DNA of 64,000 nucleotides from Corynebacterium suedekumii (lineage in GTDB: Bacteria > Actinomycetota > Actinomycetes > Mycobacteriales > Mycobacteriaceae). Below the pieces are notes generated by a model. That model was not told where the DNA came from, did not search any database, and was given only the letters and a program-made list of their open reading frames with translations. The position numbers were made by a program, and so were the translations under genes. Location: contig NZ_CP126970.1 of NCBI RefSeq assembly GCF_030252185.1, positions 744,001 through 808,000 of the forward strand, written 5' to 3'. Positions 16,986 to 20,937 of the stretch are shown here, one piece after another; positions within the stretch are counted from its first letter, which is position 1; every line of letters starts with the position of its first letter.

Positions 16986-17342
16986 ATGCTCCGCCCCCTG
17001 CTCATCGCCGTCGGGTCGATCAGCCTCGCCCTCGGCGTCGTGGGGATCGTGCTGCCCCTGGTGCCGACCACCCCGTTCCTGCTGCTCGCGGCCGCCTGCT
17101 TCGCGCGCAGCTCCGGCCGGTTGCATGACTACCTGGTGGGCCACAGGGTGCTGGGCACCTACATCTCCAACTACTACGAGAAGGCGATGACCCGGAAAGA
17201 CAAGGCGCGCACCCTCACCGTCCTGTGGGTGGGCATCGGGTTGTCGGTGTGGCTCATCGGCGAGCCCATCCCCGCGATCATCCTGCCCCTCATCGCCCTC
17301 GCGGTGACCATCCACATCCTGCGGCTCAGTCCCCGAGGCTGA
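16986..17342 (+). CDS. DUF454 (YbaN-like) inner-membrane protein
   Basis: 118 residues. The family signature GIVLPLVPTTPFLLLAAACFARSS (a membrane helix with PLLPTTPF) is present, followed by YLVGHRVLGTYI, a short basic loop (KAMTRKDKAR) and two more helices. Function is unknown across the family. Its 3' end overlaps the convergent Rieske gene by 17 bp. Confidence 0.85.
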   Translation: MLRPLLIAVGSISLALGVVGIVLPLVPTTPFLLLAAACFARSSGRLHDYLVGHRVLGTYISNYYEKAMTRKDKARTLTVLWVGIGLSVWLIGEPIPAIILPLIALAVTIHILRLSPRG

Positions 17343-17640
17343 CCCACACCTGACCATCCCGGACCTCAACAGCGTGCACCGTGGCGGGCGTCCGCGCCGG
17401 ATACCGCCGCGGCTCACCGGTACGCAGGCACCACAATCCGTGGTGCAGCGAGCACTCGATGACCGCGTCCGGGTGCACACTGCCCTTATTCAGTGGCCAC
17501 CCCACATGCGGGCACGCGTCATCGATCGCGTGGAACCCACCCTCCAGATCGCGGACCACCGTCACCTTCCGACCGTCGATCGTGATCACCAGGCTCTCAC
17601 CGGGAGAGAGATCATCGACGGCACACGCAATGTCACCCAT
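17326..17640 (-). CDS. Small Rieske [2Fe-2S] ferredoxin-like protein
   Basis: 104 residues, soluble. Cluster ligands are seen as CPH (DACPHVGWPL) and CSLHH (IECSLHHGLW), i.e. C-x-H-x17-C-x2-H, as in NirD-like and dioxygenase-ferredoxin proteins. No redox partner or oxygenase is adjacent. On the reverse strand TAACGT precedes ATG 17640 by 7 nt with no ribosome site, which favours this start over the in-frame GTG at 17649. Confidence 0.85.
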   Translation of the reverse strand: MGDIACAVDDLSPGESLVITIDGRKVTVVRDLEGGFHAIDDACPHVGWPLNKGSVHPDAVIECSLHHGLWCLRTGEPRRYPARTPATVHAVEVRDGQVWVSLGD

Positions 17641-17647
17641 GACCGAC

Positions 17648-17653
17648 ACGTTA
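17648..17653 (-). promoter_or_regulatory. -10 hexamer for the Rieske ferredoxin gene
   Basis: Reverse-strand TAACGT, 7 nt before ATG 17640; decides the start. Confidence 0.4.
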
Positions 17654-17731
17654 GCGGGAAGCCGGGTGCCGGTGGGCCGGGTTGGGTACCATCCAACGGG
17701 CCGTTATCGGACCATCCCGGGAGACCCCGAC

Positions 17732-19072
17732 ATGCCCAGAACCACCGCCACATCGGCGGAACGACGCCGCGTCGTCGCCGCCACCACCATCGGTACCGCC
17801 ATCGAGTGGTACGACTTCTTCCTCTACGCCTCCGTGGCGGGCCTGGTGTTCAACCAGGTGATGTTCGGCGACCTGGACGCCGGCCTCGCGCTCATCGTCA
17901 GTTTCCTCTCCGTCGGGCTGTCCTTCCTGTTCCGCCCCCTCGGGGCTGTCCTTGCCGGACACTTCGCCGACCGCTTCGGCCGCCGCGTCGTCCTCATGGT
18001 CACCCTCCTGGCCATGGGTGGGGCCACCACCCTCATCGGACTCGTCCCCACCTACGACACCATCGGGGTCGCGGCCCCGATCCTGCTGGTCCTCTTCCGC
18101 ATCATCCAGGGCATCTCCGCCGGTGGCGAATGGGGCTCCGCCGTCCTGCTCTCCGTCGAACACGCCCCCGTCTCCCAGCGTGGCCTCTTCGGCGCCGGCC
18201 CCCAGGCGGGCGCCCCCGCCGGCCTGCTGCTCAGCTCCGGCATGCTCGCCCTGATGAACATCATCGCCCCCGGTGACGCCTTCCTCGACTGGGGCTGGCG
18301 CGTCCCGTTCCTGCTGTCCATCGTGTTGGTGGGCATCGGCTACTGGATCCGCCGGGGCGTCGACGAATCACCCGTGTTCGAGGAGATCGCCGAACGGAAG
18401 GAGACCGGCACCCGCAACCCCCTGGGCGCACTGTTCCGCAACTTCACCCCGGTGGTCTTTGTGGGCGCCCTCGTGTTCGCCGGCAACGGCGTCGTCGGGT
18501 ACATGATCGCCGGCGGCTACGTGCAGAGCTACGCCGTCACCGAACTGGGGCTCGAGCGCGGGGCCGTCCTGTGGGCGGTGGCCGGTGCCGCGATCACGTG
18601 GCTGCTGTCGACGGTGGTGGCCGGCCGGATCTCCGACCTCATCGGACGGCGCCGGATGTACCTGGGCGGCTTCCTCATCCAGGCTGTCGCCGCCTTCGCC
18701 CTGTTCCCCCTGGTCAACACCGGACAGCTGCAGTGGCTGTGGGTGGCCATGCTCCTGCTGGGGCTGGGCCTGGGAGTGACCTACGGGCAGCAGGCCGCCA
18801 TGTACGCCGAGCTGTTCCCAGCCTCCGTGCGCGGGTCCGGCACCTCCATCACCTACGCGCTGGGGTCCATCATCGGTGGTGCCTTCGCCCCGACCATCGC
18901 CGCCGCCGTCGTCCAGGCCACCGGCTCCACCACCGGCGTGACCGTCTACCTCCTCGTGGCCACCGCCGTCGGATTCCTCGCCATGGCCGCCCTACGTGAC
19001 CGGACCGGCATCCCGCTGGGCCCGGAGCATGAGGCCGAGCAGGCACGAGGCCACTTCACCCTGGTGAAGTAG
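17732..19072 (+). CDS. MFS transporter, metabolite:H+ symporter (ShiA/ProP-like) family
   Basis: 446 residues, twelve membrane helices. The family opening is ATTIGTAIEWYDFFLYA; the loop 2-3 motif appears as GHFADRFGRRVVL, and helix 4 as FRIIQGISAGGEWGSAVLL. MHS members import organic acids, shikimate, betaine or proline with protons; the substrate here is not inferable. ATG 17732 has GGGAGA upstream. It is followed by the riboswitch-controlled gene but has no share of that leader. Confidence 0.88.
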   Translation: MPRTTATSAERRRVVAATTIGTAIEWYDFFLYASVAGLVFNQVMFGDLDAGLALIVSFLSVGLSFLFRPLGAVLAGHFADRFGRRVVLMVTLLAMGGATTLIGLVPTYDTIGVAAPILLVLFRIIQGISAGGEWGSAVLLSVEHAPVSQRGLFGAGPQAGAPAGLLLSSGMLALMNIIAPGDAFLDWGWRVPFLLSIVLVGIGYWIRRGVDESPVFEEIAERKETGTRNPLGALFRNFTPVVFVGALVFAGNGVVGYMIAGGYVQSYAVTELGLERGAVLWAVAGAAITWLLSTVVAGRISDLIGRRRMYLGGFLIQAVAAFALFPLVNTGQLQWLWVAMLLLGLGLGVTYGQQAAMYAELFPASVRGSGTSITYALGSIIGGAFAPTIAAAVVQATGSTTGVTVYLLVATAVGFLAMAALRDRTGIPLGPEHEAEQARGHFTLVK

Positions 19073-19093
19073 ACAGCTTGGTCTGTGAGGTGT

Positions 19094-19099
19094 TATTCT
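19094..19099 (+). promoter_or_regulatory. Putative -10 for the riboswitch transcript
   Basis: TATTCT (19094-19099); transcription starting about 7 nt later would begin exactly at the 5' strand of the aptamer P1. No convincing -35 is visible. Confidence 0.4.
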
Positions 19100-19105
19100 C
19101 GGCAC

Positions 19106-19241
19106 CACGATCCAGAAGCTCAGCCCACGAAGGTCCCTTGACCGGCTGACTGGCAACCGTGTCTCGCACAACGGTGCCCTCAGGGGAAGATCGGCCCGCA
19201 CCGAATCCGGCGGCGGGAAATCCGCGAGATCTTTTCAGGAG
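19106..19241 (+). promoter_or_regulatory. SAM-clan riboswitch (SAM-IV or SAM-I/IV variant type)
   Basis: The core CTGGCAACC...GGTGCC...GGGGAAGA is that of S-adenosylmethionine aptamers. P1: CGATC 19108-19112 with GATCG 19189-19193. P2: CAGCC 19121-19125 with GGCTG 19144-19148, inner GGTC 19132-19135 with GACC 19140-19143 across an asymmetric bulge. P3: GGC-ACCGT from 19152 with ACGGTGCC 19171-19178. The P3 loop TCTCGC (19162-19167) is fully complementary to GCGAGA (19224-19229), a 6-bp pseudoknot as in the SAM-IV group. AAGATC (19187-19192) can instead pair with GATCTT (19228-19233), next to the ribosome site AGGAG (19237-19241), so control is probably translational. The class assignment is by eye. 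Confidence 0.78.
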
Positions 19242-19249
19242 TGATTCTC

Positions 19250-19624
19250 ATGCACCCCACCTGCACCTCCTATGCCCCCGGGCACAACGTCCACTTCGTC
19301 CAGGCGGGACTGGCGCACCGCCAACCCGGCGAGATCAAGAAGTTCGACGCCCTCGCCCACGACGGCAACTGGCTCACCCTCGAGATGGACGGCGAGATTC
19401 ACCGCGCGTGGAACCACGACCCCGACAGGGTGCGCGACATCTACGACGCTGCGGTCGCCCTCCGGGCGACGCCGCACACCGGACAGGTCCCGCTCTACTT
19501 CACGTCCGTGCGGTTGTTCTCCGTGCGTTCCGGGAGGAGCAACCTGTTGATGTATGCCGGGTGGGACGGGCACACCGAGTGCTCACAGCACGAGACCACC
19601 ACCTTCCTGAACCGGGAGCCCTAG
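19250..19624 (+). CDS. Unrecognised 124-residue protein under SAM riboswitch control
   Basis: ATG 19250 is 8 nt after AGGAG; an upstream GTG at 19241 overlaps that ribosome site and is less likely. The protein is soluble, without signal peptide or membrane segment. It is rich in His and Trp (GNWLTLEMDGEIHRAWNHD, AGWDGHTECSQHE) with Cys5 and one late Cys. I do not recognise a family. The basic GEIKKFDALAHDG and the DRVRDIYDAA helix suggest a compact alpha/beta fold. SAM control implies a link to methionine, cysteine, SAM or methylation metabolism; no such gene is adjacent. The stop shares CTAG with the convergent HNH gene. Confidence 0.8.
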   Translation: MHPTCTSYAPGHNVHFVQAGLAHRQPGEIKKFDALAHDGNWLTLEMDGEIHRAWNHDPDRVRDIYDAAVALRATPHTGQVPLYFTSVRLFSVRSGRSNLLMYAGWDGHTECSQHETTTFLNREP

Positions 19625-20937
19625 AACGGCGGGGAAGTGTCCGCCTCTTCCCCGGTGGTGCGTGCGTTGTGGAGATCCAGGTCCTCGAGCAGGTGGTGAA
19701 CCTTCTCCTCCACGACCCGGCCCCGTTCCCGCAGGCGGGCCCGCTCCGCGCGACGGAGGCGGCGTTGCGCCAGAGTCTGCACCCACGTCCGTTGCCGGGG
19801 GGCCAGCGGCCCCTCGGCCCGGTCCACACACCAGGTCCCGTCGGCTAAAAGCCAGTAGACGTCCCCGGTGGCCTCGTCGAACTGGTAGAACACCTGCCGG
19901 TCCGTCTTCCGGTTGTGGTGGTGCTGGCACAGCGACACCAGGTTGTCGGCCGTGGTCTCCCCACCGTCCTCGTGGTTGATGCGGTGATCCTTCTGAGTGG
20001 TCACGGCCGGCCGGTTGCAGCCCGGCCACCGGCACACCAGGTCGCGTCCGTCGAGATAGACCCGGACGCCCTCCGGAGTGCGGTAGGAGTCCACGGTCAG
20101 CTTCGCGGCGGTGCCCATGTCCCGGGTGAGGGTGATTTTCCCGGACAGACTCGCCGCAGCGGCCCTGGTCAGAGCCCCGGCGATGAGGCTGAAGGTCGGG
20201 GCGTCCGGTACATCGGTGGCCCGGTAGAGGTTCATGGCCACCGACACGTGCACCTGGCCCAGGACCAGGTCCGCGAATGCGGCGGCCCGGGTCATCCCGG
20301 TGGTGGTGGCATGGGCCTTGACGGCCTCGTCGACGAGCAGCCCGGTGGCCTGGTCGAGGGTGATGTCGAAACCGATGTCACCGCCGGTGCGTGGATGGGT
20401 GGTGTAGGTGCCACGCTCAGCTGGTGGCTGGTCCGCGGCCTCGGCGACCTCCTCGTCGGTGATGTCCTCGTCGAGGTAGGGGCGGGTGGCATCGGCGATC
20501 AGCCGGGTGATCGCCCTGATGGAGGGGCGGAGCTGGTGCGGCCGGGTGGGGGAGAGCAGTTCGACGAGCTCCCGGTCGATCAGTGCCTGGAATTCCTCGT
20601 CTCCGACCAGCGCCGCGGGTGTGGCGGTCAGGGCGGTGTCGATGGCACGCAGGTGGCGCATCTCCAGGTGATGGAGGTCCTCGACCAGTGCCCTGAGGCG
20701 GGGGAGCTGGTCGAGGGTGTGCAGGGCGTCGAGGTTGGCGGCGATGAAGCCGGGGGAGTGGCCGGTGGAGCGGGTGAGAGTGGCGGCGTGGGTGGTCCAG
20801 TCCACCGGGTCGGGGCCGGGCTCATGATCTGCCGGGAGGCAGGCACGCCAGGCGGCGTACTCCGCGATGCGGGCCTGGTGGTGGGCAGCGGCGACGGGAT
20901 CGGTGGGATTGGTGACGGTGAAGGTGGCGGTGGTCAT
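19621..20937 (-). CDS. HNH endonuclease with DUF222 domain (13E12-type)
   Basis: 438 residues. A helical DUF222 region spans about 30-290 and the C-terminal HNH domain reads CRWPGCNRPAVTTQKDHRI...DNLVSLCQHHHNRK, with both Cys pairs and the HNH histidines. These proteins are abundant in actinobacteria, often as multiple diverged copies; their biological role is unsettled. ATG 20937 has a very strong AGGAGGTGA ribosome site. It is not bounded by inverted or direct repeats, so I do not call it a mobile element. Confidence 0.88.
   Translation of the reverse strand: MTTATFTVTNPTDPVAAAHHQARIAEYAAWRACLPADHEPGPDPVDWTTHAATLTRSTGHSPGFIAANLDALHTLDQLPRLRALVEDLHHLEMRHLRAIDTALTATPAALVGDEEFQALIDRELVELLSPTRPHQLRPSIRAITRLIADATRPYLDEDITDEEVAEAADQPPAERGTYTTHPRTGGDIGFDITLDQATGLLVDEAVKAHATTTGMTRAAAFADLVLGQVHVSVAMNLYRATDVPDAPTFSLIAGALTRAAAASLSGKITLTRDMGTAAKLTVDSYRTPEGVRVYLDGRDLVCRWPGCNRPAVTTQKDHRINHEDGGETTADNLVSLCQHHHNRKTDRQVFYQFDEATGDVYWLLADGTWCVDRAEGPLAPRQRTWVQTLAQRRLRRAERARLRERGRVVEEKVHHLLEDLDLHNARTTGEEADTSPPF

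Follow-up and report, generated by a model that had tools for sequence, protein, structure and literature searches.

What does a SAM riboswitch control when the only gene behind it is a small one of no known family? This question arises at a locus of Corynebacterium suedekumii, within a stretch of 64,000 nucleotides (the window) in which a sequence-only reading had proposed a SAM-clan aptamer with P1-P3 pairings and a 6-bp pseudoknot. Scanning the whole window with cmscan and Rfam 15 places the SAM-IV riboswitch (RF00634) at 19109-19228 on the forward strand, so that the proposed aptamer can be named more precisely: the match scores 54.1 bits against a gathering score of 38 (E 9e-07, or 3.5e-09 when the search space is 251 bases) and spans model positions 1-116 of 116. 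It is the sole Rfam match above cut-off within the 64-kb window and the one SAM-IV in the 2.86-Mb genome. The locus comprises the following features.

17326-17649, reverse strand: Rieske ferredoxin-like gene, upstream
17555-19072, forward strand: MFS metabolite/H+ symporter-like gene, upstream (Pfam/NCBIfam)
19070-19085, forward strand: McbR-type operator-like palindrome TAGAC-N6-GTCTG (TAGACAGCTTGGTCTG) over the promoter -35/spacer (motif match)
19094-19099, forward strand: putative -10-like hexamer TATTCT, read off the sequence
19109-19112, forward strand: P1 5' strand GATC, partner at 19189-19192 (covariance-model alignment)
19109-19228, forward strand: SAM-IV aptamer, RF00634 (54.1 bits against the cut-off of 38)
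19134-19141, forward strand: PK-1 5' strand TCCCTTGA in the P2 loop, partner at 19180-19187 (partner permutation test)
19162-19167, forward strand: PK-2 5' strand TCTCGC in the P3 loop (partner permutation test)
19180-19187, forward strand: PK-1 3' strand TCAGGGGA (partner permutation test)
19224-19229, forward strand: PK-2 3' strand GCGAGA, with the Shine-Dalgarno sequence 7 nt downstream (sequence and partner test)
19237-19241, forward strand: Shine-Dalgarno sequence AGGAG (sequence)
19250-19624, forward strand: 124-aa gene of the C-H-H-H-C family, ATG at 19250 (ORF and family alignments)
19621-20937, reverse strand: HNH-endonuclease gene, convergent and directly downstream (PF01844)

The symporter-like gene ends on the palindrome's first TAG. 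Inspection by eye of the listed ORFs of 80 aa or more between 14 and 26 kb, with Pfam run on five neighbours, turned up no methionine gene, and within that range the earlier remark that none lies nearby is upheld. Several relatives from the window's clade have, further downstream, a member of one additional gene cluster and, by eye, a trpE-like gene.

P1, P2, P3 and P5 are all present in the covariance-model structure. The 6-bp pseudoknot proposed between 19162-19167 and 19224-19229 (TCTCGC/GCGAGA) proves to be PK-2 and covaries among relatives, with true partners scoring 13.39 against 12.01 for mismatched ones (57 distinct pairs from 70 SAM-IV places in the genus, kinship ignored) and 0 of 5000 permutations reaching the observed value. 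A second pseudoknot had been missed: PK-1, which in the window has 8 bp including one G-T pair. Its true partners score 17.35 against 13.56 (60 distinct pairs from the same 70 places, kinship ignored; 0/5000 permutations), and among its distinct helices, for example CTCCCGG/CCGGGAG, CCTTCGG/CCGAAGG and CCCTCAG/CTGAGGG, compensatory changes are directly visible. The minimum-free-energy (MFE) fold computed without pseudoknots is no better than that of shuffles: z is -0.18, and 77 out of 200 shuffled sequences match or beat it. Judged by its sequence, this is a typical SAM-IV riboswitch, predicted to bind SAM.

The protein encoded behind the aptamer matches no Pfam or NCBIfam family, in agreement with the suggestion that it lies outside known families. 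Its relatives, which we name the SAM-riboswitch-associated C-H-H-H-C family, share a pattern of conserved residues: C5 (100/100), G11 (99/100), H12 (100/100), H15 (83/100), H56 (96/99) and C111 (90/90), counted over 100 rows covering the motif in which some proteins, the window's included, are entered twice under two names. The window protein itself carries the invariant Cys and His, the near-invariant further His and the C-terminal Cys by which the family is recognised. The family diverges fast, members found with profile A1 outside the window protein's clade being only 17-31% identical to it. None of the 15 relative pairs computed reaches a dN/dS of 0.6, indicating purifying selection; the values of 0.51 and 0.52 in the two distant pairs that include the window gene, and of 0.54 in two very close pairs of the C. 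glutamicum group (dS 0.010 and 0.020), speak against the reading. Tandem family copies exist in some genomes. Six loci (L070, L087, L088, L091, L092 and L068) are listed for two family ORFs after one SAM-IV leader or for longer members of about 190 aa; such longer members have an extra N-terminal segment with a weak profile match and without the Cys/His motif. An AlphaFold model of the window protein (pLDDT 86.6, pTM 0.80) suggests one small beta-barrel-like domain. PDB structures give no convincing match to this fold, and OB-like small beta-barrels of the CusF/SilF type are at most candidate relatives. We infer that the conserved Cys/His/His/His/Cys set binds metal, and a metal-binding SAM-starvation factor would be our guess at what the protein is.

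Across 242 genomes of the genus, SAM-IV occurs in 67 and the family (profile A1) in 70, and 55 genomes carry both (Fisher p 1e-28, kinship ignored). In 54 of these 55 a family ORF lies directly behind SAM-IV, and in the 55th, G011, a weak family match lies inside the next ORF. Counted by place rather than by genome, the family comes right after the aptamer at 56 of the 70 SAM-IV places. Among the 15 family genomes without an Rfam SAM-IV hit, a genus-trained model built without the loci concerned detects such a leader immediately ahead of the gene in 11; six of these eleven leaders are also seen by cmscan at 28.7-39.1 bits, one of them above cut-off. The leader thus precedes the gene in 66 of the 70 genus genomes with the family, and the same model finds none before the gene in the other four (G013, G026, G142 and G038). 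Two genomes are scored differently between the surveys, since G044 shows the family only at its SAM-IV places and G011 only by profile (weak, E 4.6e-4); the family match in G026 is also weak (E 3.7e-5). By script, the first ORF starts 0-176 nt after the aptamer, with the longest distances in G174 (176), G095 (102), G147 (66) and G211 (53) and at most 22 nt in the rest. G038 (L120) carries a beheaded riboswitch that retains only P5, the 3' strand of PK-2 and the ribosome site, other sequence having taken the place of the 5' part, its start region being otherwise C. glutamicum-like.

The family is absent from twelve of the 67 SAM-IV genomes of the genus. A metY-like gene lies downstream at just one of the other 14 SAM-IV places, in G226 (L083; by eye). 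At seven Corynebacterium places (L104, L105, L106, L108, L109, L110 and L111) an unrelated small protein follows SAM-IV and an operator-like box; it has 117-156 aa and the motif DxHSRNL...LPxDxxFxATLR, and an AMP-nucleosidase-like gene comes next (by eye).

Outside the genus, a family-level sample of 351 genomes contains 30 with a match, 20 of them from other genera with 22 copies, and SAM-IV lies just upstream of 18 of these 22 copies (60.6-79.2 bits). The gene starts 25-37 nt after the aptamer in 15 copies and, measured by hand, 26 nt after it in the second L233 copy, a count that excludes L235 (automatic start inside the aptamer), L242 (5 nt) and the first L233 copy (wrong aptamer paired). 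The conservation of the riboswitch-gene pair, 66 of 70 genomes within the genus and 18 of 22 copies beyond it, is therefore far wider than was visible to the sequence-only reading, and its prediction that a SAM-IV-type riboswitch controls one gene outside known families is supported. In named genomes, Corynebacterium counted, a family member lies directly downstream at 44 of 68 loci found with a sequence pattern rather than a covariance model, among which those of Paracoccus, Mesorhizobium and Mariniblastus may be chance. The hits comprise Corynebacterium (21/24), Kocuria (4/4), Demequina (7/17, with L132, L149 and L181 scored as misses though the motif is visible by eye), Cellulomonas (3/5) and single cases in Trueperella, Actinomyces, Gleimia and Arachnia. 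At six Demequina loci (L130, L135, L144, L166, L175 and L179) the SAM-IV-pattern leader is followed by another small protein, with a C-x-D-x-x-C stretch and a GDxVxxLW-like motif (by eye).

At the scale of the phylum (296 genomes; SAM-IV in 26, the family in 10), SAM-IV is mostly not tied to the family, 22 of the 26 SAM-IV genomes having no family member. Of nine family genomes besides the window's, two have SAM-IV, two SAM-I and five neither (one at a contig edge). In L289 and L282 SAM-IV lies ahead of an ORF carrying the family domain; the L282 ORF has 445 aa, with the domain at its C-terminal end. In L281 the family stands behind SAM-I (RF00162, 56.3 bits) and in L285 two copies do so, at 52.5 and 38.5 bits, the latter under the cut-off of 44.4. 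No SAM riboswitch is in view at L283, L286, L287, L288, L231, L232 and one of the two L233 copies, nor at L280 and L234, which lie at contig edges. That homologues always follow the riboswitch holds for most genus members and for the 18 of 22 copies outside, but fails in five of the nine other phylum-sample genomes. SAM-I and SAM-IV both belong to Rfam clan CL00012, so their linkage to the family is not wholly independent; a gene kept across a change between SAM-IV and SAM-I is a strong argument for a protein role tied to SAM.

The promoter contains a further element that had been missed, an McbR-type site. Positions 19070-19085 are an exact TAGACN6GTCTR match, one position off the strict palindrome TAGAC-N6-GTCTA, which we take to be the McbR operator consensus; Rey and co-workers reportedly described the McbR site in 2005. 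Searching 120 nt upstream of the aptamer at all 70 genus SAM-IV places recovers TAGAC-N6-GTCTA with at most one mismatch at 60 of them (26 exact), 48 of the 56 family places and 12 of the 14 others; of 1495 background windows taken downstream, 5 have such a site and none an exact one. In all but one match (73 nt), the site lies 27-39 nt ahead of the aptamer. In the window genome TAGACN6GTCTR matches exactly at 7 places, a count no higher than that of a backward control (11 versus 12 by strand). These include sites 56 nt before metK, 21 nt before a cobalamin-independent methionine synthase-like gene, between sulphite reductase (cysI-like) and ferredoxin-reductase-like genes, and before a peptide-binding-protein gene and an OsmC gene; the seventh (L294) lies past an MFS gene, on its 3' side, and not ahead of a recognised gene. 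McbR sites in this genus are described as overlapping promoters, also at fpr2/cysI, in excerpts of PMC2580772 and PMC1266029 that do not spell out the motif.

In order to rationalise these observations, we propose, with a probability of roughly 0.6, that a single promoter, a single riboswitch and one small protein together form a SAM-starvation response unit at this locus. The computed basis of this proposal comprises the aptamer, the pseudoknots, the spacing, the family, its SAM-IV/SAM-I linkage, the operator-like site and purifying selection. The promoter, covered by the McbR-type operator, would be repressed by McbR unless the methionine/sulphur regulon is derepressed, and the leader would fold as a SAM-IV aptamer able to bind SAM. 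With SAM bound, PK-2 would stay formed, 7 nt ahead of the Shine-Dalgarno sequence, and sterically keep the 30S subunit off, presumably the OFF state; as SAM falls, PK-2 would open and the protein would be made. The protein may then bind metal and help the cell to withstand a shortage of SAM or methionine or to recover afterwards. As relatives of the gene stand behind the same or a related SAM sensor in many actinobacteria, the family probably has a job at low SAM, and one still to be discovered, when the cell is short of S-adenosylmethionine. None of the libraries searched contains the family, which is widespread and is connected with SAM through its RNA linkage and, in corynebacteria, through the operator-like site. 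More tentatively, at somewhat less than even odds, we would generalise it to an actinobacterial SAM-starvation protein with an unclassified metal-binding domain, its gene governed by riboswitches of both classes, SAM-IV and SAM-I, with the methionine repressor's operator as an additional control in corynebacteria. Such a protein would act on SAM/methionine homeostasis by an undescribed mechanism and be a main SAM-IV target in Corynebacterium, Kocuria and parts of Micrococcales and Actinomycetaceae.

The same evidence can be read differently, with the protein as an enzyme or accessory factor of methionine/sulphur metabolism (for instance in a thiol- or zinc-dependent step, or as a methionine synthase helper) rather than a regulator or stress factor. 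The operator-like motif is common to metK, methionine synthase-like and cysI-like genes, the conserved Cys/His set would suit such a role, and SAM-IV precedes the metY-like gene in G226 (by eye) and metY in M. avium (excerpt of PMC3774663); furthermore, at outgroup locus L227 an ORF resembling PLP enzymes of Cys/Met metabolism lies on the opposite strand, about 1.5 kb downstream (by eye). However, the neighbourhoods listed, annotated by eye and by clustering, reveal no obvious operon with a methionine gene, divergence down to 17-31% identity is unusual for a core enzyme, and presence in 70 of 242 genus genomes is patchy. We therefore regard an enzymatic or accessory role as unlikely and favour the starvation-response unit.

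How the proposed unit might be gated is suggested by the spacing of PK-2. By script, the PK-2 motif lies 5-9 nt from the Shine-Dalgarno sequence in 40 of the 56 genus leaders with the family and 15-22 nt from the start codon in 40 of 56; the longer gaps to the Shine-Dalgarno sequence are partly motifs mis-picked in P5. So short a gap leaves little room for an intrinsic terminator and puts PK-2 inside the expected 30S footprint. The sequence-only reading had instead let the P1 3' strand pair beside the ribosome site, and switching through that helix, with the ligand-free fold masking the ribosome site, draws on a genuine 9-bp complementarity in the window (19184-19192 with 19228-19236) that forms in the MFE fold. 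The pairing itself thus stands, but as a general mechanism it does not: across 45 distinct leaders the helix scores 9.82 versus 9.70 for mismatched pairs, 978 of 5000 permutations reaching the observed value, and we consider this route improbable. With PK-2 beside the ribosome site and the alternative helix not conserved, occlusion of the ribosome site by a SAM-stabilised PK-2 is favoured; the pseudoknot fits better than the alternative P1-3'-strand helix, and we infer from the leader sequences that PK-2 hides the ribosome site when SAM is bound.

A defence-like alarm, in which the riboswitch opens on loss of SAM (for example when a phage enzyme degrades it) and a protective or toxic protein is turned on, would suit a one-gene unit with changing neighbourhoods, fast divergence, tandem copies in some genomes and patchy presence. 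Against it, PADLOC returns 0 families for the window protein and one weak match (E 0.035) among 48 members, PHROGs returns two weak matches to one member each, and the operator-like site points to sulphur metabolism; tblastn with the window protein alone, a search that would miss distant members, has no hit among 50,697 phage and 72,556 plasmid records. We judge an alarm of this kind very unlikely. That a SAM-IV aptamer merely happens to sit beside an unrelated ORF is hardly credible, for although 12 of 67 genus SAM-IV genomes lack the family and SAM-IV precedes other small genes in the genus, the linkage counts already disfavour it (56 of 70 genus places, 18 of 22 copies outside and two SAM-I cases) and the ORF is under purifying selection.

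The SAM-starvation reading can be set against published data on C. glutamicum, in which cg1478 is a family member at the matching position behind a SAM-IV leader. The offset between the TPP and SAM-IV starts is 904 nt both in G065 and in published C. glutamicum, which identifies the G065 family member as cg1478. Excerpts of PMC3890552 and PMC4046766 list a SAM-IV leader upstream of this hypothetical gene, its transcript seen by RNAseq, and Table 2 of PMC3890552 gives a mapped 5' end 2 nt ahead of the aptamer; our search places an operator-like site 32 nt upstream of it. In PMC2807442 Table 2, cg1478 mRNA rises by log2 +4.89 at pH 6 versus 7.5, a value above those of the other rows consulted, and its peptides are listed in the pH 6 cytoplasm column only. 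That condition is described there as one with the McbR regulon induced and methionine slightly reduced, SAM not being measured. Purely translational control would not by itself predict a change in mRNA, a point that weighs against the proposed unit. In the open-licence literature, as far as its searchable text extends, we found no paper naming or describing the family. The expectation that a SAM-regulated orphan would be new was right for the family, of which the excerpts give no description, and too strong for the arrangement, one SAM-IV-controlled orphan, cg1478, being already listed in the excerpts of PMC3890552 and PMC4046766.

A riboswitch shows which genes are in demand once a particular metabolite runs short. 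A protein lacking domain annotation that is linked to two SAM aptamer classes and, in corynebacteria, to a methionine-type operator-like site is a strong pointer to missing SAM/methionine physiology, and cg1478 offers a direct test case in a species already used industrially for amino acid production. The picture of SAM-IV changes as well, 56 of 70 Corynebacterium SAM-IV places preceding the family and one of the other 14 a metY-like gene (by eye).

Compared with known systems, the riboswitch shares its Rfam clan with SAM-I (RF00162) but has a different scaffold, and its class is SAM-IV, not SAM-I; its architecture of P1-P3, P5, PK-1 and PK-2 is that of SAM-IV (RF00634; excerpt of PMC6890682). 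What differs is the gene, here a small protein outside known families, whereas the excerpts consulted report metY behind SAM-IV in M. avium (PMC3774663) and a cysteine desulfurase or aminotransferase-class-V gene in Streptomyces (PMC8079986, PMC8269248). As in the McbR regulon, an operator-like palindrome lies in the promoter, with a motif common to metK, methionine synthase-like and cysI-like genes; CoryneRegNet, as quoted in the excerpt of PMC2807442, lists LexA and not McbR as the regulator of cg1478, whereas McbR binding at the present locus is predicted from the motif. Finally, cg1478, which the cited excerpts annotate as hypothetical and whose family and its spread they do not describe, is the closest counterpart: it has the SAM-IV leader in its 5' UTR, belongs to the same protein family and carries a similar operator-like site.
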